Shown here: positions 1,001 to 12,078 of the stretch, piece by piece
How the letters are laid out: every line of letters begins with the position of its first letter
Position numbering within the stretch: position 1 is the first letter of the stretch
Assembly: GCA_021163155.1 (NCBI GenBank)
Contig: JAGGXI010000060.1
Span: forward strand, 1 to 13,528
DNA from: Candidatus Aerophobota bacterium
GTDB taxonomy: Bacteria > Aerophobota > Aerophobia > Aerophobales > JAGGXI01
Direction: 5' to 3'
Length of the DNA stretch: 13,528 nt
Notes under the pieces: generated by a model
What the model was told of the DNA's origin: nothing
Seen by the model: the letters and a program-made list of their open reading frames with translations, nothing else
Databases searched by the model: none
Made by a program: the position numbers and the translations under genes

Positions 1001-1681
1001 TTACAAAATTATTCGAGCGTCAATTACTTGAATACCCTTTTTAAATACAAATATAGGATTTAAATCTATTTCATTAATCTCAGGATTTTCCATAGTTAAC
1101 TGAGAAATTTTTATTAAAATTCTTTTTATCGCTTCAATATCTTTGGGAGATTCACCTCTTGCTCCTCTTAAGATTTTGTATCCCTTAATTTCGGCAATCA
1201 TCTCTTGTGCATCCTTTTCTTCTAAGGGAAGAATACGGAAAGAGACATCTTTTAATATCTCTACAAAAATTCCCCCTAATCCAAACATTACTACAGGGCC
1301 AAAGTGAGGGTCTTTCGTCATTCCTACGATGACCTCTGTTCCTTGAGGAACTACAGGAGATACTATTACCCCAAAAATTTTTGCTTCTTTATTATATTTT
1401 TTTGCCTTCGAAATAATCTCCTTATAAGCTAATTTTGCCTCATTCTCATTTTTAATACCTATCTTTACTCCTCCAGCATCTGATTTATGGATAATATCTG
1501 GAGAGACAATCTTCATTACTAGAGGATAGGCAATCTCTTTAGCTATTTTACTTATTTCATCTTCATTTTTTATCAATTTAAAATCAGGAACAGATATTTT
1601 ATATTCCTTTAATAACCCTTTCGCCTCCGTCTCCAATAAAGATCTTTTCTCTTTTTTTGCTCTCTCAATAATCTTATGCAT
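1001..1681 (-). CDS. acdB: ADP-forming acyl-CoA synthetase, beta subunit (ATP-grasp)
   Basis: This 226-residue protein is the ATP-grasp subunit of a two-subunit ADP-forming acetyl/acyl-CoA synthetase. With the alpha subunit it makes ATP from ADP, phosphate and acyl-CoA, releasing the free acid. Key sequence: YPLVMKIVSPDIIHKSDAGGV, whose His (residue 65) matches the phosphate-relay His of ACD beta subunits, then GTEVIVGMTKDPHFGPVVMFGLGG (quoted in part as the ATP-grasp core) and a C-terminal EIDLNPIFV. The length matches the roughly 230 residues usual for archaeal beta subunits. I chose the ATG at 1681, which overlaps the end of acdA by 8 bases and has GAAGGGA upstream; a TTG at 1696 would add five residues. 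Translation is probably coupled to acdA. It is the last gene of the probable mttB-ior-acd operon. Confidence 0.9.
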   Translation of the reverse strand: MHKIIERAKKEKRSLLETEAKGLLKEYKISVPDFKLIKNEDEISKIAKEIAYPLVMKIVSPDIIHKSDAGGVKIGIKNENEAKLAYKEIISKAKKYNKEAKIFGVIVSPVVPQGTEVIVGMTKDPHFGPVVMFGLGGIFVEILKDVSFRILPLEEKDAQEMIAEIKGYKILRGARGESPKDIEAIKRILIKISQLTMENPEINEIDLNPIFVFKKGIQVIDARIIL

Positions 1682-3017
1682 CTTTTGTCCCTTCAAGATT
1701 TGAAGTATATAAAACTATTTTTTGAATAACCTTAGCACATCTTTCTCCTGTCCCATAATTGGGAATTCCATAGCTATTTAGCTCTTCAATTCCCTTTTTT
1801 ACTAATCTACCAGCCATAAAGCTTGCAAATATAGGCTTTTTTATTTTATCTTTAACTTTGCCTAATGCTTTAGCAATTTTTGTAGAATCCATATAAGCGG
1901 TAGGAACAAAAATTGCAATTATAGCATCATATTCTGAGGCTATTTCCTCGCAAACAAAAGCAAAATTTTCTGCACTTCCATAAGCTAAAAGGTCAAAAGG
2001 ATTTCTTAAAGAGATATTAGAAGGAAGAGAGGTTTTAAGTCTATCTTTTAAACTCGGAGAAGGCTCAGGTACAGCCAAACCCAACTCTTCTAATTTATCG
2101 GTAGTCATTACTGCAGGCCCTCCCGAATTTGTCACTATAGCAATCTTATTTCCCTTAATTTTTTGATAATAGATTAAACCCCGACTTAAGTCAAACATTT
2201 CTCTCACATTATCTACTCGCAGAATACCGCTCTGTTTAAAAGCAGCATCGTATATCCTATCCTCTCCTGCTAAAGAGCCTGTATGAGATGAAGTAGCTCG
2301 CATTCCAGCCTTGCTTTTACCTGACTTAATGACAATAATTGGCTTTTTAGGCAAAGTCTTCTTAGCTTGAGCTAAAAACTTTCTCCCATCTTTTAATCCT
2401 TCAATATATACAGCGATAACTTTAGTCTGATAATCATCTTGAAGATATTTAATTAAATCTGCTTCATCCACATCACATCTGTTGCCATAGCTTATAAATT
2501 TTGAAAAACCAAAACCCATCTCTTCCGCCATCATTAAAACTACTCCTCCAAGTGCACCACTTTGAGTAATAAAAGCTGTCTCACCTTTAAGAGCACGAAC
2601 CTCTATACTGGCAAAGAGATTGTATTCAGTATTCATTATCCCGGCACAATTTGGACCTATAATCCTCATATTATACTTTTTAGCAATCTCTCTTATTCTT
2701 TCTTCTCCCTTAATATTCCCCACTTCAGAAAACCCTGCGGAGATTATAATTACAGACCTAACACCCTTATTACCTAATTTCTCTAAAATAGAAGGAATAA
2801 ATTGAGAGGGAATAGCAATAACTGCTAAATCAATATCTAAATCTTTAAAGTCTTTTTTGATATTTAATCCAAATATCTGGTCACCAGTGTGACTTATAGG
2901 ATATACTTTCCCTTTAAATCCTCCCTCAGTTATATTCCTCACCAGATCAGATCCTGTTTTTCCTTCCTTCATTGAGCCAAAAATGGCAACAGAATGAGGA
3001 TTAAAAAATTTTTTCAT
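1674..3017 (-). CDS. acdA: ADP-forming acyl-CoA synthetase, alpha subunit (CoA-binding)
   Basis: This 447-residue protein is the CoA-binding and succinyl-CoA-ligase-like subunit of ACD. An N-terminal CoA-binding Rossmann domain (about residues 1-125) ends in GPNCAGIMN (121-129). The ligase-like domain follows, with TQSGALGG (151-158) and the catalytic SSHTGSLAG (243-251), where His245 corresponds to the phosphorylated active-site His of Pyrococcus ACD alpha. The separate alpha and beta chains follow the Pyrococcus arrangement rather than the fused form. The ATG at 3017 has an AGAGGT ribosome site at 3025-3030, just below a stem-loop that overlaps the end of iorB. With IorAB it would complete 2-keto acid to acyl-CoA to acid plus ATP. 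The acyl specificity cannot be read from sequence. Confidence 0.92.
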   Translation of the reverse strand: MKKFFNPHSVAIFGSMKEGKTGSDLVRNITEGGFKGKVYPISHTGDQIFGLNIKKDFKDLDIDLAVIAIPSQFIPSILEKLGNKGVRSVIIISAGFSEVGNIKGEERIREIAKKYNMRIIGPNCAGIMNTEYNLFASIEVRALKGETAFITQSGALGGVVLMMAEEMGFGFSKFISYGNRCDVDEADLIKYLQDDYQTKVIAVYIEGLKDGRKFLAQAKKTLPKKPIIVIKSGKSKAGMRATSSHTGSLAGEDRIYDAAFKQSGILRVDNVREMFDLSRGLIYYQKIKGNKIAIVTNSGGPAVMTTDKLEELGLAVPEPSPSLKDRLKTSLPSNISLRNPFDLLAYGSAENFAFVCEEIASEYDAIIAIFVPTAYMDSTKIAKALGKVKDKIKKPIFASFMAGRLVKKGIEELNSYGIPNYGTGERCAKVIQKIVLYTSNLEGTKDA

Positions 3018-3033: not shown

Positions 3034-3062
3034 CCCCATTAGATGTTTACTATCTAATGGGG
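3034..3062. promoter_or_regulatory. Perfect stem-loop at the iorB-acdA junction
   Basis: The 11-bp arms CCCCATTAGAT (3034-3044) and ATCTAATGGGG (3052-3062) pair perfectly around a 7-base loop. On the minus-strand transcript the stem covers the last codons and stop of iorB and sits only three bases before the acdA ribosome site. It could stabilise mRNA ends or tune acdA translation. The right arm plus its flank (catctaatggggttta-like) also occurs in repeat R1, so this may be a small repeat insertion. Confidence 0.7.
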
Positions 3063-3634
3063 TTTACTACCTCATACCCTTTATTAAAAGCAGCAATATT
3101 CTTATCTATTTCCCGGGGAATACTTTTTCTTAAAACATTAAGAATGCATTCCTTATCAAATGAGGAGATAGAAGAGAGAGCACCAAGTAAAACATTATTT
3201 TCTGCAATAGGAAGCCCTACTTCCAATGCTATTTTTTCTGCGTCTATCCAGATTATCTCTGCTTTTGCATCATTAAGTAACTTTATTATCTCTTCCTGTT
3301 TTGGATATCTCTCTGGATGAGCCATCATATCTATAGGATAAACCTTTTTTTTATTTAAAATAACCACTCCTTTTGGCTTTATAAGCTCTAAAGCTTTTAA
3401 TACTTCAGAGAGCTCCATTATTACCATTATATTAGAAGATAAAGGAGGGATTCTTGGTCCAAAGACATCGCCAATTCTAACCTCACAATGAACAGGTCCT
3501 CCTCTTTGAGCTAATCCTATCTCCTTATAAAACTTAACTCTTTTACCTTTTTCCATTGCGTAACGGGCAATGATTTCTGATAGTCTAACCACTCCCTGTC
3601 CACCTACTCCTGCTAAATAGATATTATACTGCAT
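3050..3634 (-). CDS. iorB: Indolepyruvate ferredoxin oxidoreductase, beta subunit
   Basis: This 194-residue protein is the small subunit of the IorAB 2-keto acid:ferredoxin oxidoreductase. It belongs to the pyruvate-ferredoxin-oxidoreductase gamma-domain family. The hallmark AGVGGQGVV is at residues 8-16, and AQRGGPVHCEVRIG, at about 43-56, is the family's second signature. The length is close to the roughly 200 residues usual for the family. The ATG overlaps the iorA stop by 11 bases and has GAGGTGAT upstream inside iorA, which suggests translational coupling. The last residues (VNPIR) and the stop lie in the stem-loop/repeat sequence at 3034-3062, so the C-terminus may be repeat-derived. 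The complex usually oxidises aryl pyruvates such as indolepyruvate and phenylpyruvate to aryl-acetyl-CoA. Confidence 0.92.
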   Translation of the reverse strand: MQYNIYLAGVGGQGVVRLSEIIARYAMEKGKRVKFYKEIGLAQRGGPVHCEVRIGDVFGPRIPPLSSNIMVIMELSEVLKALELIKPKGVVILNKKKVYPIDMMAHPERYPKQEEIIKLLNDAKAEIIWIDAEKIALEVGLPIAENNVLLGALSSISSFDKECILNVLRKSIPREIDKNIAAFNKGYEVVNPIR

Positions 3635-5471
3635 CTTTTATCACCTCTATTGCCTCCTCAGGGCAAACATCTTTACATAAACCACATCCATTACAAGAGG
3701 ATGTAATCTCCATTAAACCTTTTTTATCCTTAGGATGAAATATCATCGCCGGGCAGGCTAATGAACTTAAGCATACCCTACAACCAGTGCATTTATCAGG
3801 ATTTACCTTTAGTTTTGGTAAATTAACTTTTCTTCTCCTTGATTGAAGAGCACACTCACGACGAGAGACTACTACAGATACTCCTGGATGCTCTATTGCC
3901 TCTGCTATTACATCTATTGACTCTTTTAAGTGATAAGGGTCAATTACACTTATATCTTTTGCACCGCATCCTTTACATACCTCTACAATATCTATTCTCA
4001 TAGGATTGGTATCTTTTAAAGGAATAGTTCCCGGGTTCTCCTGAAAGCCTGTCATAGCTGTCCATCCATTATCTAAAATGATAATAGTTAAGGAAACATT
4101 TTGATATACTGCATTGATAAGAGGAGGTATACCAGCATGGAAAAAGGTAGAATCTCCTATGGTTGCAAGGACTGGTTTTTCAATACCAGCCCATTTAAAT
4201 CCTTGAGCTAAACCTATACTTGCCCCCATAGCTACTTCAGTCCAACAAGTCTCAAAAGGCTTGTTCATTCCTAAAATTGTACATCCTATATCCCCAGTAA
4301 CAATAATATCCTTTTTTTTATACTTTAATTTTTTAATAGCTTTATTTATAGCATAGTATGTTCCCCTATGAGGACATCCTATACAAAATGAGGTGGGACG
4401 CTTAACTTCAAGTTCTTCTGCTCTTTTTATGATTTCTGAATTTTGTTCAGATTCAAGCTTTACTTTAAGAAGAGCTTCGAGAGATTTTTTTATTTCTTTA
4501 AAGGAATAACTTCCCATCATAGAGAGAGTGCCATCAAACTTTCCTAAAATATCTATTTTTTTACCTGAAAGAAAAGAGATTCTCATAACCTCTGCTTCTA
4601 TAAAAGGCTCTAATTCTTCTAATACAAGCAGTTTATCTATATCTTTTAAGAATTCTTTTATCTTCTCATCAGGTAGAGGATTCACTATACCTATCTTTAG
4701 CCAGGAGAGCTTTAAATTGTATCTATTTACTGCTTCCTGAAAATTCTCCCAGGCTGCTCCAGAGACAATTACTCCATATTTTCCCTCTAAATGCACTTGA
4801 TTAACTCTTGAGTCTACAATTTTAGAGGCTTCATTTAACCTTGTAAGTGAATCCTGATGCTGGTTCATACACCAGGATGCTTTAGGCTTAGTATATTTGG
4901 AGATATCCCGCTCAAAATGGGCTTCTCTTTTTAGCTCTACTCTTTTGCCTATCTTTACATCAGAGGCAACATGAGAGATGCTTGCCGTTGACCTTAAAAA
5001 AACGGGTCCTTTAATCTTCTCAGAAACCTCGAAGGCAAGCTTTACAAAATCTAAACTCTCCTGCTGAGAGGAGATATCAAGCATAGGAGCTACTCCAAGT
5101 TTAGCATAGTATCTTGAGTCCTGTTCCACCATACCCGCACTTACTCCCGGGTCATCAACAACATAAATAACCAATCCCCCTCTACAACCACTATAAATAA
5201 TGGAGCATAGGGAATCAGAGGCAACATTTAATCCTGACATCTTCATGGTAACAATGGCTCTTTTCCCTGCCCAGCTAGCAGCAGTAGCAATCTCAGAGGC
5301 CACTTTCTCATTTACACTCCACTCTATATGAATTCCCAATTCTTTTGCTTTGGGCAACAAAGTCTGGATTACCTCTGTTGAAGGAGTGCCCGGGTATCCA
5401 CAAACTACCTCTGTTCCTGATTCAATTATTCCTTCAGCAACTGCTTCATTTCCTGTTAATAGTTTCTTCAA
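3624..5471 (-). CDS. iorA: Indolepyruvate ferredoxin oxidoreductase, alpha subunit
   Basis: This 615-residue protein is the large, thiamine diphosphate-dependent subunit of IorAB. The N-terminal pyrimidine-binding domain begins LLTGNEAVAEG and contains GYPGTPSTEV (25-34). A middle transketolase-like domain follows. The TPP domain has CIGCPHRG (363-370), GDIGC (393-397) and GDS(439-441)...DN(467-468), the GDG-X-N-type motif with Ser in place of the second Gly. The C-terminus is a two-cluster ferredoxin: Cys561/564/567/573 and Cys593/596/599/603. All eight cluster cysteines are present, so the protein should be active. Start: TTG at 5471 with a perfect AGGAGGT (5477-5483) five bases upstream; no ATG is better placed. 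It reduces ferredoxin while making acyl-CoA, which the ACD encoded downstream can use. Confidence 0.95.
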   Translation of the reverse strand: MKKLLTGNEAVAEGIIESGTEVVCGYPGTPSTEVIQTLLPKAKELGIHIEWSVNEKVASEIATAASWAGKRAIVTMKMSGLNVASDSLCSIIYSGCRGGLVIYVVDDPGVSAGMVEQDSRYYAKLGVAPMLDISSQQESLDFVKLAFEVSEKIKGPVFLRSTASISHVASDVKIGKRVELKREAHFERDISKYTKPKASWCMNQHQDSLTRLNEASKIVDSRVNQVHLEGKYGVIVSGAAWENFQEAVNRYNLKLSWLKIGIVNPLPDEKIKEFLKDIDKLLVLEELEPFIEAEVMRISFLSGKKIDILGKFDGTLSMMGSYSFKEIKKSLEALLKVKLESEQNSEIIKRAEELEVKRPTSFCIGCPHRGTYYAINKAIKKLKYKKKDIIVTGDIGCTILGMNKPFETCWTEVAMGASIGLAQGFKWAGIEKPVLATIGDSTFFHAGIPPLINAVYQNVSLTIIILDNGWTAMTGFQENPGTIPLKDTNPMRIDIVEVCKGCGAKDISVIDPYHLKESIDVIAEAIEHPGVSVVVSRRECALQSRRRKVNLPKLKVNPDKCTGCRVCLSSLACPAMIFHPKDKKGLMEITSSCNGCGLCKDVCPEEAIEVIKDAV

Positions 5472-5483
5472 TTAGTACCTCCT
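5472..5483 (-). promoter_or_regulatory. Ribosome binding site that fixes the TTG start of iorA
   Basis: The minus strand reads AGGAGGT-actaa-TTG. The full-length SD and its five-base spacing support TTG as the initiator. The rest of the 102-base gap to mttB contains no convincing promoter, so readthrough from mttB is likely. Confidence 0.8.
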
Positions 5484-5573
5484 AAATACTAAGAGTTTAA
5501 TCACAAATTTGGCTACAGTTTTATTTTTCCACTTTTATAATCCCGAAAATATCGTAAAGAGAAACAAGAGGAA

Positions 5574-7007
5574 TTAAATTTTAATATTCTCTTCTCTCTT
5601 TCTTATAATCTCTGCTAATCTCTCTTTAATTTTAGAAGGAACAGGCTCTGAAGTATATTCTTTAAGAATTTTCTTCACTCCTATATTCAATTTATCAAAA
5701 AGAGTTTTTTTACCACCCTCAACCCAGGTGTGATATCTCTGTCTATCTAAATATTTAGGGTACCATATCTTTCTAAAATTTTTTAATGTAGCCTCCTCCT
5801 CGAGAAAGTGACCACCTGGTCCTACCTTATTAATTACATTTAGTGCCAGTGTCTCTGTATTCACCTTAACTCCTTCTAGTATTTTCTTAACTTCTCCAAT
5901 AATCTCATCATTTAATAGAATAGCTTCAAAAGAAGAGGTCATCCCTGATTCAATGTATCCTATATCATGAACTAAGTTTGCTCCACTTAAGCCTCCCATT
6001 AAACAAGATGAAGCTATTTCAGCTCCGGCCTGTTGGTCGAGAACTTTAGCATCACTAATTCCGCCAACACTAAAAATAGGAAGGTTATAATATCTTGCCA
6101 AACCACAAGCAGCAGCATCCATAAGAAGAGTCTCAGGTGCTGCATATGCATCTATTGTAGTAGACATATCCATTACGTCAAAGCCTATGCCATAGATAAA
6201 AGGAGCTCCTTTTCGTTTTAACTGGTGCATTACTAAACCACTTAAAATTTCAGCATTGCCTGTAGCTAACATTCCGGCTAAAGTGATTGGCCCTGTTGCT
6301 CCGGTCAAAATTGCCGGGCAATAAGTTACGGGAATATTTTTCTCAGCAATCAGAAGTAGCTTTTGCACTGCAGGCTTACTATGCTTTAAAGGAGAGGTGG
6401 GTTCATCATAAAGGATTAAAAATGGATGTCTTTGTAGCTCTTCAAGATTTCCACTTACTGCTGTAGCCATTTTTAGTATGTCTTCAAGTCCACATTTATC
6501 ATATGCTGTAAAGATTATAGGTTTCTTTGTATTAGAGACCATAGCCTCAAAGTGATGTCTATCTGATGTAGCAGGGGGAACATCAGAAGCACAACCCACA
6601 GACATCATAAAATCAATATTAGAAAGGTAATCACAGAATAAACTTGCTTTGATTACATCCTCTTTTACTGCTGGTCGCCTTTCTCCTGTAAACACATCAA
6701 TAATGTTAGGACAATCTGAGCCTGTACCAAAATAGACTTTATCTTCACCTAGAAAGAGGGCAGGCTCTCCCTTACGATTATATATAGTTATTTTTGATGG
6801 TGTCCCAGACAATGCTTCTTCTACTAAACGAGAAGGCATTTTTACTATATTATCACTTACAACATCTGCTCCTGCCTCTTTTAAAAGAGATATAGCCTCT
6901 GCATCAAAAACCTTTACCCCTGTTTTCTCTAAAATTTTCAAGCTGGCCGAATGAATCTCTTTAATCTGGTTATGAGATAATACTTTGAAACTAACTCTTT
7001 GTAGCAC
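5574..7007 (-). CDS. MttB-family corrinoid-dependent methyltransferase without pyrrolysine
   Basis: This 477-residue protein belongs to the trimethylamine methyltransferase (MttB) superfamily, TIM-barrel enzymes that move a methyl group from an amine to a cob(I)alamin protein. The N-terminus (LSHNQIKEIHSASLKILEKTGV) is the usual helical entry, FGTGSDCPNIID lies at 93-104, and GPGGHFLEEEATLKNFRKIWYP (starting at residue 396) is the family's C-terminal signature. The frame has no internal amber codon, so it belongs to the non-pyrrolysine group whose characterised members act on quaternary amines (MtgB on glycine betaine, MtpB on proline betaine, MtcB on carnitine). The substrate cannot be assigned here. 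The start is GTG at 7007, with AAGGAGGA eight bases upstream. It probably heads the operon with iorAB and acdAB. A corrinoid protein is encoded at 1-114. Confidence 0.92.
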   Translation of the reverse strand: MLQRVSFKVLSHNQIKEIHSASLKILEKTGVKVFDAEAISLLKEAGADVVSDNIVKMPSRLVEEALSGTPSKITIYNRKGEPALFLGEDKVYFGTGSDCPNIIDVFTGERRPAVKEDVIKASLFCDYLSNIDFMMSVGCASDVPPATSDRHHFEAMVSNTKKPIIFTAYDKCGLEDILKMATAVSGNLEELQRHPFLILYDEPTSPLKHSKPAVQKLLLIAEKNIPVTYCPAILTGATGPITLAGMLATGNAEILSGLVMHQLKRKGAPFIYGIGFDVMDMSTTIDAYAAPETLLMDAAACGLARYYNLPIFSVGGISDAKVLDQQAGAEIASSCLMGGLSGANLVHDIGYIESGMTSSFEAILLNDEIIGEVKKILEGVKVNTETLALNVINKVGPGGHFLEEEATLKNFRKIWYPKYLDRQRYHTWVEGGKKTLFDKLNIGVKKILKEYTSEPVPSKIKERLAEIIRKREENIKI

Positions 7008-7030: not shown

Positions 7031-7275
7031 ATTTTAACCCGGATTCGGCAATTTGAATAATGACCGTTAAGTTTATCCTAAAATACTGCTCTGAGTCTAA
7101 TCTTCATGAAAATTAAATTTTTTAAAATTTTTTAGGAGCAAAAAATATTTTTCTTTTTTGGGTGGGGGCAACTTCAGTCGCCCTTTGCAAAATAAAAATT
7201 AGAGTCTATTGGGAGGCTAAAGCCTCCCCTGCCCAAGCTAATCACTCTAACAGTTTGCCGAATCTGGGTTTAAAT
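7031..7275 (+). mobile_element. MITE-like 245-bp element, copy 1
   Basis: The 21-bp ends (7031-7051 and 7255-7275) are inverted repeats matching at 19 positions, with the core aaccc(g/a)gattcggcaa. The inside is non-coding and includes a GGGAGGCT-aa-AGCCTCCC hairpin (7211-7228) and the two-hairpin core of repeat R3. A second copy of the same length lies inverted at 9179-9423, on the other side of the proline racemase-like gene. It sits between the promoter at 7377-7404 and the mttB homologue, so it would form most of that transcript's leader. No transposase is inside, which fits a non-autonomous element. Confidence 0.82.
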
Positions 7276-7342
7276 ATTTATACTAATTCTTTAGCTATCT
7301 ACTAATAAATAATAGATTAGTCTCATTTTTCTCTTTAGCTTA

Positions 7343-7770: not shown

Positions 7771-8078
7771 ATTTTCGGTTCTTTCACGTTCTATTTCCTC
7801 AATTAACTTAAGACACTCTTCTGTAAGAGTGGCATCCCGCTAAACAGAGAAATATATCTTCTCTTTTACAACCTTTCCATAAGAAAAATGGGAAGTGTGG
7901 AGGGCTAATTAGTGGTAAACTTTCAACCATAATAGGTGGCAAGTTTCATCGGAATATCTAATAAAATTACCTTTTCTTAATTTTTCTCTTTTCTTTGAAT
8001 TTATATATTAGTATATTAAAACCTTTAATTAATTGCTCCTTATCTTTATTCGCTTTTTTATAAACTCTATAATAATAA

Positions 8079-9104
8079 CTACAACTCAAACCCATTTTTC
8101 AATGGATCATCAGGGTCGATGATAAATTCACAAATACCTGTTATCCATGCTGAACCAATGATTTCTGGAATAACTGTCTCTATCCCCCAGAGATTTTTTT
8201 TCTCAATTAGTCTACTACGGAACTCTGTGCCAATAATACCTTGATGAATCACTTCCTCACCCAAGCTAATTTCCCCGTTTGTATACTTTAATGCCATATG
8301 TGCTGAGGTTCCTGTTCCACAGGGGCTTCTGCAAATTACACCTTCAGGGGGAATGGTAACACTTTTGGCGATGTTTCCTTGCTCTTCTACTATCCTCACT
8401 AAACTTACCAGCCCCTCCCTGCCTGAGGGATATACTATCTTTTGACTTTCCTTTATGGCTTCCATAATCCTCAAAGATAATCTTACTAATTCATCCTTAT
8501 TCTGCTTTTTTAACGTTAATCCAAGCCTTTCTGCTTTTACTATAGCAAGAAACTCACCGCCATAGGCTATATCTACTTCTACATCGCCTTTTCCCGGGAG
8601 CGAAACCGAGAGAGTGCGGTAATAAAAAGAAGGAACATTAATTACCCCAACTTCTTTTACTTTACCTTTGCTAATTTTAGCTGTAGTTGAGACTAATCCT
8701 GCAGGAGTATCGAGCTTCACATTGACATTATCACCTTTTGCCTTTATCATCCCTAACTCAATTAAGGTAGTAACCACTCCTATTGTTACTGTCCCACACA
8801 TATCCCAGAATGCAGCGGGAGACGTGAAGACTGCTCCTATATCTGCTTTTTGTGAGACAGGTTCTGTCAATACCGCCCCCTCCATATCATTATAACCTCG
8901 TGGCTCCCGCATAAGAGAATGCATCATCGTCTTCCATTCTCTCTCAAGCCATTTCTTCTTTTCTTGCATACTCTTACCCGATATCTTTTTTGGTCCTCCT
9001 AAAATAACTACTCTAGTTGGATCACCAGCTGTATGAGAATCTACAGTAGTAACAATACTCGAACTTCTTAACTTCTTTAAATGCTTTGGTGAAATTTCTA
9101 ACAT
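8079..9104 (-). CDS. Proline racemase family protein with altered substrate-contact residues
   Basis: This 341-residue protein belongs to the proline racemase / hydroxyproline epimerase family: cytoplasmic, cofactor-free enzymes using two cysteines as acid and base. VDSHTAGDPTRVV (21-33) is the family N-terminal signature. Both catalytic cysteines are present: Cys103 in DMCGTVTIG and Cys262 in SPCGTGTSA. The usual MCGH motif is MCGT, and the usual DRSPCGTG is CRSPCGTG. In characterised racemases that His and Asp contact the substrate nitrogen. REPRG is followed by Y rather than the usual H. These changes argue against plain proline or hydroxyproline as substrate. The ATG at 9104 has an AGAGGGAAGAG purine-rich site upstream. 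A promoter formed at the end of the flanking MITE is listed separately. The gene is monocistronic and bracketed by two inverted MITE copies. Confidence 0.88.
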   Translation of the reverse strand: MLEISPKHLKKLRSSSIVTTVDSHTAGDPTRVVILGGPKKISGKSMQEKKKWLEREWKTMMHSLMREPRGYNDMEGAVLTEPVSQKADIGAVFTSPAAFWDMCGTVTIGVVTTLIELGMIKAKGDNVNVKLDTPAGLVSTTAKISKGKVKEVGVINVPSFYYRTLSVSLPGKGDVEVDIAYGGEFLAIVKAERLGLTLKKQNKDELVRLSLRIMEAIKESQKIVYPSGREGLVSLVRIVEEQGNIAKSVTIPPEGVICRSPCGTGTSAHMALKYTNGEISLGEEVIHQGIIGTEFRSRLIEKKNLWGIETVIPEIIGSAWITGICEFIIDPDDPLKNGFEL

Positions 9105-9169
9105 TATTACTCTTCCCTCTTATTTAGTTTAAATTTCCTAAAAGACTGCATAGCCAAAAATTTAACTTT

Positions 9170-9198
9170 ATTATAATGTTTTAACCCAGATTCGGCAA
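9170..9198 (-). promoter_or_regulatory. Promoter of the racemase-like gene, with its -35 inside the MITE end
   Basis: The minus strand reads TTGCCG (9193-9198), 17 bases, then TATAAT (9170-9175). The -10 is perfect and lies just outside the MITE. The -35 matches consensus at four of six positions and lies in the element's terminal inverted repeat. The predicted leader is about 60 bases. This assumes an ordinary sigma70-like factor. Confidence 0.55.
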
Positions 9199-9423
9199 TC
9201 TATTAAATCTCTCTCTGGGCAGGGGAGGCTTTAGCCTCCCAATAGACTTTAGTTCTTATTTTGCAAAGGGCAACTGAACTCACCCCTCCCCAAAAAAGAA
9301 AAATATTTTTTGCGCCTAACCTAAAAAGATTTAAAAAATTTAATTTTTATGAAAATTAGACTTAGAGCAATATTTTAGGATAAACTTAGTGATAATTATT
9401 TAAATTGCCGAATCTGAGTTCAA
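9179..9423 (-). mobile_element. MITE-like 245-bp element, copy 2 (inverted)
   Basis: This is homologous along its whole length to 7031-7275, read in the opposite direction. The ends carry the same inverted repeats, aacccagattcggcaat at the left and attgccgaatctgagtt at the right. It shares the internal strings taagtttatcctaaaata and attgggaggctaaagcctcc (as complements) with copy 1. Scattered substitutions show that the two copies have diverged. Confidence 0.82.
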
Positions 9424-9491
9424 AACTGATAGAAAAGCCAATTTTTAATTTTTATACCCTTTTTTTATAAGTTCATCCCAGATTTAGCAAT

Positions 9492-10838
9492 TTAACTAAT
9501 AAGTTTATATTTCCACTTTCCCTGATAAAACCGAAAACCCATAAATAATCCCTCAATTATATTAGAGACAGCAATTCCTATCCATATTCCAGTAATAGCC
9601 AATTCTAAATTGTTGGCGAGAAATATTACTAAAGGAATACGAATCAAAAAAAGAGTTAATACATCAATTACCATAGGAGAAAAAGAATCACCTGCTCCTT
9701 GCATAGCTCCAGCTAAAATTATACTCAAAGCTATAAATACAAAGGTTACTGCCATAAATCTAAGATAACTCGCGCCTATTTTTATTACTTCGGGATTGTT
9801 GTTAAAACCTGCTACTATCAAAGGAGCGAAAAAGGAGATAATTACTGCTAAAACTATCATCATAATCTCGTAAAATCCTAAAGTTAGCCATGCACTCCTT
9901 TCAGCTCTTTTTGGTTTATTTGCCCCTAAATTTTGGCCTACTAAAGTAGCTGCTGATTGAGCCAGACCAAAACCGGGCATCTGAATAACCATCATTAATC
10001 TTATTCCAATACCATAGCCAGCTATGGCAAAGGTGCCATAAAAGGCTACAATTCTCATTAAAATAAGGCTGGATACATTCCACACAAGTTCTGTTATAGA
10101 AGTAAATATCCCTATCTTAAGAATTTGTTTAATTACTTTTAATTCTATTTTGGGAATCTTTAAATTTATATGGAGAAAGGATTTTCCCGTAATAAAAATA
10201 AAGAAAAGGATAAACATTTCTACAATTCTGGATATTACTGTAGCTATAGCAGAACCAGCCACTCCCAGACAAGGAAACCATCCCGGACCAAAAATAAACA
10301 GAGGGTCTAAGATAACATTTAACCCGATAGAAAATATTAAAACCTTAGTAGGAGTAATAGTATCTCCTGCTCCTCTTAAGGCAAAAACTAAAGTTATAGA
10401 GGGAAATATTACTAATGCTCCAAGACAAAGAATTTTAAAATAGGATACCCCTAAAGCTAAAACCTCATTTTTTGCTCCCATAGCTTTGAGCACAAATTCA
10501 GCAGAGAAAAAGCCTACTATAGCTATAATTATCCCTCCCGTAAAAGACATTAAAAGAGATTGAATAACTACACTATTTGCTTTTTCAAATTCCTTACTTC
10601 CGGTAAATCTGGCTACCATAGCCATCGTACCAACGGATATTCCCTCAATTGCTATCCAGATTATATCCAGAATAGTCCCACCTAAAGACACAGCAGCTAT
10701 TGCAGAAGGTCCAAGTTTACCAACAAACACCATATCTACGATGTCAAAGCTTCCCCAGATAACGTTTCCTATTATTAAAGGCAGGGATAAATACCAAATA
10801 TTACGAGCTATACTTCCTTTAGTTAAGTTCATCTTCAT
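9492..10838 (-). CDS. MATE family efflux transporter
   Basis: This 448-residue membrane protein has the length and hydrophobic pattern of a 12-helix MATE exporter (DinF/NorM-like). These exporters use a Na+ or H+ gradient to expel cationic drugs or metabolites. The N-terminus LTKGSIARNIWYLSLPLIIGN leads into helix 1. DMVFVGKLGPSAIAAVSLGG, at about residues 35-54, is the typical helix 1-2 loop signature, and the second half repeats the pattern (SAATLVGQNLGANKPKRAERSAW). The substrate cannot be predicted. The ATG at 10838, or a second one at 10832, lacks a clear SD. The remnant IS3 element ends only 44 bases upstream, so the gene may have been cut off from its original promoter. A GA-dinucleotide run lies in that gap. 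Confidence 0.92.
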   Translation of the reverse strand: MKMNLTKGSIARNIWYLSLPLIIGNVIWGSFDIVDMVFVGKLGPSAIAAVSLGGTILDIIWIAIEGISVGTMAMVARFTGSKEFEKANSVVIQSLLMSFTGGIIIAIVGFFSAEFVLKAMGAKNEVLALGVSYFKILCLGALVIFPSITLVFALRGAGDTITPTKVLIFSIGLNVILDPLFIFGPGWFPCLGVAGSAIATVISRIVEMFILFFIFITGKSFLHINLKIPKIELKVIKQILKIGIFTSITELVWNVSSLILMRIVAFYGTFAIAGYGIGIRLMMVIQMPGFGLAQSAATLVGQNLGANKPKRAERSAWLTLGFYEIMMIVLAVIISFFAPLIVAGFNNNPEVIKIGASYLRFMAVTFVFIALSIILAGAMQGAGDSFSPMVIDVLTLFLIRIPLVIFLANNLELAITGIWIGIAVSNIIEGLFMGFRFYQGKWKYKLIS

Positions 10839-10943
10839 TATAATTGTATTGTTCTATGTGTGAGAGAGAGAGAGGACTAAGGTGGACCCATTCCCTTAGA
10901 CAAAAAACTGCCATGTTTAAGCTACAATTTGAGTCTGTTTATC

Positions 10944-11565
10944 TTATTTGTTTTTGTCAAAATATATCTCAGCAGGCATTCTGTAATTGAGAGATTGATG
11001 TGGCCTCTCATGGCTGTAAAAGTTCATGTAATCACGGATTCCCTGCTTTGCCCCACGGACGCTCTGATAATCTTTAATGTAAACTCTTCATACTTTACAG
11101 ATCTCCATAATCTTTCATTGAAGATGTTATCCATGGCTCTACCTCTACTATCCATACTGATCTGGATACTTCTCTGTTTCAGTTGTTTGGTGAAGTCTAA
11201 ACTGGTGGACTGAGAGCCCTGATCAGAGTTGAAGATCTCAGGAGTGCCAATAGTAAGTGCTCTTTCTAAAGCCATTATACAGAAATCAACATCCATGTCA
11301 ATAGACAGCTCCCAGGAGAGCACATAGCGGTTAATCCAGTCCATTATGGCTACTAAATAAAGCCATCCATGCCTCAATCTGATATATCTTATGATTTGGA
11401 TGAGGCTTACTTAAATGAGGCCCTTGATAGATGGTCTCAATACCTTATAGTAAACCGTTGATCTCCCTATTCCTAATAGATCTGCCTGTCTGGCTATAGG
11501 TATTACTTTACTTTCGTGCTCTATGAGCAAGACCTTCCTCCTCACTGATAAGTTCAGATTTTTTT
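10944..11565 (-). pseudogene. IS3-family OrfB transposase (DDE integrase core), broken
   Basis: The frame is restored piecewise. Part 1, after the slippery site, reads NLSVRRKVLLIEHESKVIP then ARQADLLGIGRSTVYYK. The next recognisable part is IYQGPHLSKPHPNHKIY, then a jump to RHGWLYLVAIMDWINRYVLSWELS, then FNSDQGSQ with the second catalytic Asp, then RAMDNIFNERLWRSVKYEE with the catalytic Glu. Two in-frame segments expected for the family appear to be missing: about 60 residues after STVYYK, and about 24 residues after HKIY, which carried the first catalytic Asp. A one-base deletion after VKYEE shifts the tail; in the other frame it reads VYIKDYQSVRGAKQGIRDY to the stop at 10944-10946. The enzyme would be inactive. 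Confidence 0.85.
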
Positions 11566-11834
11566 AAGCCAGTCAACTTCCACCTTCAACTGTCCAATCT
11601 GCTTATAGAGCTCCTCGATGAGCATATCTTTATCCTTATCTCGTTTTTGCCTCTTGCCCATGAATGATTCTCTTCTCCCCTCAGTAGCTATAGACTTCCA
11701 TCTTCTTATCTGACCGGGATGAACTTTATACTTGCTGGCTATTTCAGCTGAAGTTTTCTCTTCTCTTCCTTAAGAGCTTCTAATGATACTTTCGCCTTAA
11801 AGACTGGTGGATGTTTTTTCCGGATATTTCCCAT
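11554..11834 (-). pseudogene. IS3-family OrfA (helix-turn-helix), frameshifted
   Basis: The ATG at 11834 has a perfect AGGAGGT (11840-11846). The frame reads MGNIRKKHPPVFKAKVSLEA then stops early after KRKLQLK. In the adjacent frame it continues as TSAEIASKYKVHPGQIRRW and on to DWLKKI and TGA at 11554-11556, so one base has been lost near residue 26. The rejoined product is the HTH_Tnp_1-type DNA-binding subunit with a C-terminal coiled-coil segment. The total of 281 bases is one short of a multiple of three, as that predicts. Confidence 0.82.
11559..11565 (-). promoter_or_regulatory. Programmed -1 ribosomal frameshift site of the IS
   Basis: The run of seven A (minus strand) follows DWL in the OrfA frame. 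A -1 slip joins CTT-AAA-AAA to AAT-CTG-AAC and opens the OrfB frame. This is the standard IS3-family mechanism for making the OrfAB fusion, and it remains intact although both frames are damaged. Confidence 0.75.
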
Positions 11835-12078
11835 AGTGAACCTCCTATTTTTATTTTACCTGTAACTTAATGCACTGTCCAGTTTTTGGGGTCCACTATA
11901 GAGGAATGTTTACAAGCGTAGGCAGCTCAAAAACTTTTAGCTGGTTTAAAAAATTATTTTCCTTATGCAAAAGTTCATTATTGTATAAAAAAGGTATATC
12001 TAAAATAACTCATAATAATCTTGACATAATCTGGCATTACAAAGTAAAACATATTTTATAATTTTGCTCTATAGTTAG

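Follow-up and report, generated by a model that had tools for sequence, protein, structure and literature searches.

Results

Gene content of the locus

The window, by which we mean the whole 13,528-bp stretch of DNA analysed, encodes on its minus strand, in this order, a MATE-family transporter, a racemase-like protein (P0001), an MttB-superfamily methyltransferase, IorA, IorB, the alpha and beta subunits of an acyl-CoA synthetase and, at the contig end, the start of a corrinoid protein. From its ORF, a Pfam profile and alignments, P0001 (8079–9104, minus strand, 341 aa) is a protein of the proline-racemase family with an apparently rebuilt substrate pocket. It matches Pfam PF05544 over its full length (E 1.8e-93; 313.6 bits against a cut-off of 27), which places it in the superfamily, and bears the motifs FWDMCGT (Cys103, Thr105) and ICRSPCGTG (Cys258, Cys262).

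The adjoining MttB gene (5574–7007; PF06253, E 1.3e-100) has no in-frame stop and is thus of the non-pyrrolysine type. It is separated from P0001 by 1,071 bp containing repeats and a consensus promoter, so that co-transcription of the two genes is doubtful. Further along lie the alpha (3624–5471; TIGR03336, 647.1 bits with a cut-off of 650.9) and beta (3050–3634; profile match) subunits of an indolepyruvate ferredoxin oxidoreductase-like enzyme of 2-oxoacid oxidation, the alpha-type (1674–3017; TIGR02717) and beta, ATP-grasp (1001–1696; PF13549) subunits of an ADP-forming acyl-CoA synthetase, and the truncated corrinoid (B12-binding_2) protein (1–114; PF02607; ORF MVDLNELKENVINGKADEVKELTQKALDEG), which is the likely methyl acceptor. 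Other corrinoid proteins and one RACo-type activase are encoded elsewhere in the genome. The MATE-family transporter gene (9492–10838; TIGR00797) is located upstream of P0001 and possibly belongs to the same module. All these genes are on the minus strand. An Rfam search of the window gave no matches.

Inverted copies (83%) of a dispersed repeat of about 250 bp flank the racemase-like gene (7032–7286 and 9168–9424), and further copies occur at L005:3297–3549 and L137:2899–3134; the repeat may be MITE-like and may have moved the gene. At 10878–11900 an IS3-type transposase survives in remnants with a broken frame, 77% identical to a copy on contig C47 (L006).

Paralogues in the same genome

The genome (1.83 Mb, 119 contigs) contains three copies of the PF05544 family. 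P0002, on contig C79, is 78% identical to P0001 and likewise has MCGT, with Tyr in place of Asp; P0003, on contig C47, shows the canonical MCGH and DRSPCGTG and about 45% identity. P0001 and P0002 are under purifying selection (dN 0.113, dS 0.87, dN/dS 0.13 over 340 codons), and the same ratio rules out that they are decaying pseudogenes. Clear DNA similarity between their two loci covers only the gene itself (8064–9110, 80%), besides a weak match inside MttB, and the two neighbouring MttB proteins are 51% identical with saturated dS. The racemase gene was therefore probably duplicated, or converted, independently of its MttB neighbour, landing beside two different MttB genes.

On contig C79, genes for a permease, the ATPase and a second permease of an amino-acid-type ABC transporter precede P0002, which is followed after 37 bp by MttB and then by an SBP_bac_3 binding protein, a C69 peptidase, an aminotransferase, a PLP enzyme and an OCD/mu-crystallin protein. 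The amino-acid ABC transporter, aminotransferase and C69 peptidase genes are compatible with ordinary amino-acid catabolism too. Contig C4 of this genome carries a third pairing of a racemase fold with MttB: a very distant proline-racemase/DapF-like gene with ACGG ... ACGTGT, under the Pfam cut-off (L138:3817–4791, plus strand), directly precedes an MttB gene (4881–6032, plus strand), with a saccharopine-dehydrogenase-like gene upstream.

A rebuilt substrate pocket

The best solved relatives of P0001 are proline racemases, AsProR (7pb3, E 2.4e-74) and a structure in entry 6j7c, followed by TcPRAC (1w61). As stated in the sequence-only reading, both catalytic cysteines are retained: Cys103 (codon 8796–8798) and Cys262 (8319–8321) align with Cys130 and Cys300 of TcPRAC, within the MCG and RSPCGTG motifs that carry the two acid/base cysteines, or their Ser/Thr variants, of the superfamily. 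The two substitutions that it had described are equally apparent in the alignment to 1w61, with Thr105 (8790–8792) replacing His132, a contact of the substrate nitrogen (PMC4113996), and Cys258 (8331–8333; Tyr in P0002) replacing Asp296, the other nitrogen contact. The amine contacts are thus lost as proposed, and the alteration extends beyond them, with Glu75 (8880–8882) replacing Phe102, which packs on the proline ring (PMC1964878), Trp100 (8805–8807) replacing Leu127 and Pro252 (8349–8351) replacing Phe290; all these codons are on the minus strand. In the study of TcPRAC and hydroxyproline epimerase, the substrate is packed by Phe102 and Phe290, with Leu127, His132 and Asp296 assisting (PMC1964878).

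P0001 therefore has MCGT and CRSPCG instead of the MCGH and DRSPCG signatures of proline racemase proper, lacks its pocket residues Phe102, Leu127 and Phe290, and scores 333.3 bits with the NCBIfam equivalog PRK13969, under the cut-off of 556. Cys262 occupies the second catalytic site, where trans-3-hydroxyproline dehydratase (t3HypD) has Thr. By signatures, pocket and equivalog score, we class P0001 as a member of the proline-racemase superfamily that lies outside proline racemase proper.

Our family sample comprised 110 genes at 103 loci, obtained from 1,808 genome searches (some genomes being searched repeatedly, and some searches being made for other families), together with five sequences from PDB alignments; the comparison set consisted of the 113 members other than the pair P0001/P0002. 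Asp occupies the Asp296 position in all 113, and His the His132 position in 109. Within the sampled family members, the double loss of His and Asp is confined to P0001 and P0002, and the residues of the pair at the five pocket positions named in the literature (Glu75, Trp100, Thr105, Pro252 and Cys/Tyr258) are seen in none of the 113 others. In a comparison of 70 sequences, 33 of the 341 positions carried residues unique to both paralogues, among them all three literature positions that the sequence-only reading had not mentioned; by our own arithmetic, which assumes independence, the chance of this is about 8e-4. Tyr71 is also unique to the pair, in place of a near-constant His. One further family member (L071:5982–7010, plus strand, in genome G100) is also odd, with MCGE instead of MCGH and a Trp where Phe290 would be; it keeps Asp and sits on a long branch.

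The PCGTG loop and the catalytic cysteines are intact in both paralogues. As judged from these alignments, the part of the pocket that holds the nitrogen and the ring has been rebuilt in the pair, with the proton-transfer machinery unchanged. The geometry of the active site was taken solely from alignment (a single-sequence model gave a pLDDT of 35). Thr105 by itself is weak evidence, because characterized members with Ser for His use ordinary hydroxyproline: B9K4G4, a t3HypD, and B9JQV3, a 4-hydroxyproline 2-epimerase (4HypE), have Ser for His with Asp kept, and act on hydroxyprolines (PMC4113996). Our argument is built on the loss of Asp and the change of the whole pocket, not on Thr alone.

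The subfamily that has lost both contacts was found in one genome only. No close relatives of P0001 were found in the genome-contig and viral-contig collections, and when 84,980 species genomes were scanned for [D/N]MCGTx[T/S..]IG, a test of that exact motif only, 18 stretches came back, none of them in family members.

Recurrent pairing with MttB in another phylum

MttB was present in the fetched stretch at seven of the 103 family loci. Five of these, in five sampled genomes, belong to another phylum, that of genome G341. At L178 the genes encode OpuAC, a ProV-type ATPase, a permease, an opine-dehydrogenase-like protein, MttB, the racemase, a corrinoid protein and a pterin methyltransferase; L181 and L182, with MttB, a BCCT betaine transporter and the racemase, are near-duplicates (racemases 97% identical). 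L179 carries an SSS symporter, the racemase, two successive MttB genes and a corrinoid protein, and L183 the racemase, a branched-chain-type ABC transporter and MttB. The link to the neighbouring MttB drawn in the sequence-only reading is therefore genuine and repeated, at a second locus in the same genome and at five in another phylum, in the company of genes for betaine transport and corrinoid chemistry. Of the five MttB-linked racemases of that phylum, four keep both His and Asp, and that of L179 has Ala for His; thus, linkage to MttB does not require the loss of these residues. The relatives that keep them may act on the demethylated amine.

Two other genes in these clusters can be mentioned. 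The octopine/opine-dehydrogenase-like gene of L178 (8663–9916, minus strand) lies within the cluster of betaine uptake, MttB, racemase and corrinoid genes. At L179 (187–1970, minus strand), downstream of the double MttB/racemase cluster, are genes for a B12-binding small subunit and a MutL-like protein, which by eye are of the glutamate/methylaspartate mutase type.

Phylogenies of the MttB and racemase proteins

In a tree of 29 MttB-superfamily sequences, all eight MttB proteins from the seven racemase loci share a single clade (100/100, stem 0.53) with two further proteins, which come from other genera of the order to which the window belongs. This clade leaves out MtgB (2qne), the pyrrolysine MttB and the other MttB proteins of the same genome and order. 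One of the two further members, at L127, is encoded beside an OpuAC/ProV/ProW betaine transporter. The gene of the other (L126:2–1399, plus strand) ends about 30 bp ahead of an Asp/Glu-racemase-like gene (1432–1968, plus strand; PRK07475, E 2e-61). The non-pyrrolysine MttB proteins characterized so far demethylate quaternary amines, namely glycine betaine, proline betaine, carnitine and gamma-butyrobetaine (PMC8604678).

In the racemase tree, P0001 and P0002 group with the canonical P0003 (88/89), among the Cys/Cys racemases and not in the t3HypD clade. Without constraints, the tree keeps them apart from the MttB-linked racemases of the other phylum (98/97). That the two groups were recruited independently is nevertheless not proven, since the tree constrained to a single origin of both MttB-linked groups was not rejected (p-AU 0.099).

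Discussion

Our results point to P0001 as a two-cysteine racemase or epimerase of the alpha carbon working in a corrinoid-dependent quaternary-amine pathway, on a putative amino-acid betaine or the still N-methylated product of its partial demethylation, a reading to which we give as much credence as doubt. An N-methylated amino acid is the most likely class of substrate, given the MttB, corrinoid protein and betaine transporters found around the family. The sequence-only reading had suggested a substrate whose nitrogen cannot be held by the usual His and Asp. The loss of both contacts and the link to MttB support this suggestion in part; it gains little from the loss of His alone, and in the other phylum the contacts are mostly kept by the MttB-linked relatives.

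The enzyme would descend from a proline racemase recruited to the pathway, and its substrate would be an alpha-amino-acid betaine, or an N-methylated product, of the proline-betaine type or derived from another N-methylated amino acid. One thiolate of the Cys103/Cys262 pair would take the proton from the alpha carbon, and a proton would come back on the opposite face from the other thiol. Both enantiomers could thereby feed a stereospecific MttB methyltransferase and later enzymes; alternatively, the product would be inverted for later steps. The pocket of P0001 and P0002 would lack both of the hydrogen bonds that hold an N-H group, and Glu75, Trp100 and Tyr71 could form an acidic and aromatic seat for the methylated ammonium; as read from the alignment, these changes would be in keeping with an ammonium group that is quaternary, or methylated and bulky. 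MttB would hand the methyl group to the corrinoid protein, and the carbon skeleton may exit as a 2-oxo acid via the adjacent IorAB and acyl-CoA synthetase, being oxidized for ATP.

The order of these steps could also be reversed. P0001 would then racemize the amine, tertiary or secondary, that demethylation by MttB leaves behind (for instance N-methylproline), or the free imino acid, and not the betaine. The operon association is compatible with either order, and an N-H substrate would suit the His and Asp that all but one of the five MttB-linked relatives in the other phylum keep; both N-H contacts are absent in the genome studied here, which is harder to square with a secondary amine, and we consider this order possible but doubtful for P0001. 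It is rather unlikely that P0001 racemizes or epimerizes some other amino acid, whose free amine would be bound by a carboxylate relocated from Asp296 to Glu75, with the MttB proteins handling related methylated substrates or being incidental. Glu75 is indeed unique to P0001 and P0002, the P0002 cluster includes the SBP_bac_3 amino-acid-type transporter, aminotransferase, PLP-dependent enzyme and OCD genes, and IorAB comes next in the window; the repeated occurrence beside a single MttB clade and betaine transporters would, however, be left unexplained.

The sequence-only reading had also allowed for a dehydratase; such an enzyme, or an eliminase, would act from the alpha carbon like t3HypD. 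Dehydratases do exist in the family, and the OCD/mu-crystallin gene near P0002 belongs to the family of pyrroline-2-carboxylate reductases, but both cysteines are kept in the pair, the second site being Thr in t3HypDs (as in 38 of the 113 other members; PMC4113996), and the tree places the pair away from them, so that this option is disfavoured and appears very improbable. That P0001 is an ordinary proline racemase tolerating Thr and Cys/Tyr can practically be set aside: its closest relative in the genome is the canonical P0003, and active family members with Ser for His exist, but every other member compared has the Asp, all the proline-pocket residues named in the literature are changed and the genome already has its canonical copy.

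Returning to the preferred reading, of a racemase or epimerase in the quaternary-amine pathway, we tentatively propose that a cofactor-independent amino-acid-betaine racemase of the proline-racemase fold, its N-H contacts exchanged for the acidic and aromatic seat, and one MttB clade make up a 'racemise and demethylate' module present in at least two bacterial phyla. Among the papers searched, none linked proline racemase to MttB/betaine, trimethylamine methyltransferase or quaternary amine, and the gene module has apparently not been described until now; with this pairing, a racemase specialized for methylated (betaine) amino acids may be coming to light for the first time. In a survey of 2014, most members of the superfamily were limited to three reactions, whose substrates are all proline or hydroxyprolines (PMC4113996). 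If our reading is true, P0001 adds a fourth kind of substrate, and the module accounts for the use of either enantiomer of an amino-acid betaine by anaerobes. It also offers a handle on the substrates of uncharacterized MttB proteins, of which Eubacterium limosum alone encodes 40 more of the non-pyrrolysine type (PMC8604678), one clade now being predicted to act on chiral amino-acid betaines.

P0001 and P0002 are variants within a known enzyme family. They share the superfamily fold with 4HypE and t3HypD, some of which have Ser for His (PMC4113996), but these enzymes keep Asp, and t3HypD is without the second Cys. The neighbours of the hydroxyproline enzymes are DAAO, DHDPS and aldehyde dehydrogenase (PMC4113996), as opposed to MttB for P0001. 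The MttB betaine systems (MtgB, and MtpB, MtcB and MtyB of E. limosum) likewise combine a non-pyrrolysine MttB with a corrinoid protein, and at L178 the resemblance includes the pterin methyltransferase and betaine transporter; in contrast, the MtyB paper mentions no racemase (PMC8604678). The proline racemases TcPRAC (1w61) and AsProR (7pb3) are homologous to P0001 over the full length and share with it the Cys/Cys pair, the PCGTG loop and the Cys/Cys part of the tree. They differ in that His132, Asp296, Phe102, Leu127 and Phe290 are all replaced in P0001, and in that the P0001 and P0002 genes sit with MttB. The nearest parallel in chemistry is HpbD, reportedly described by Zhao and colleagues in 2013 as a 4-hydroxyproline betaine 2-epimerase of the enolase superfamily. 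The reaction that we propose for P0001 is of the same kind, a betaine being inverted at its alpha carbon, but HpbD, with its unrelated fold and metal-dependent chemistry, would be a functional analogue only.
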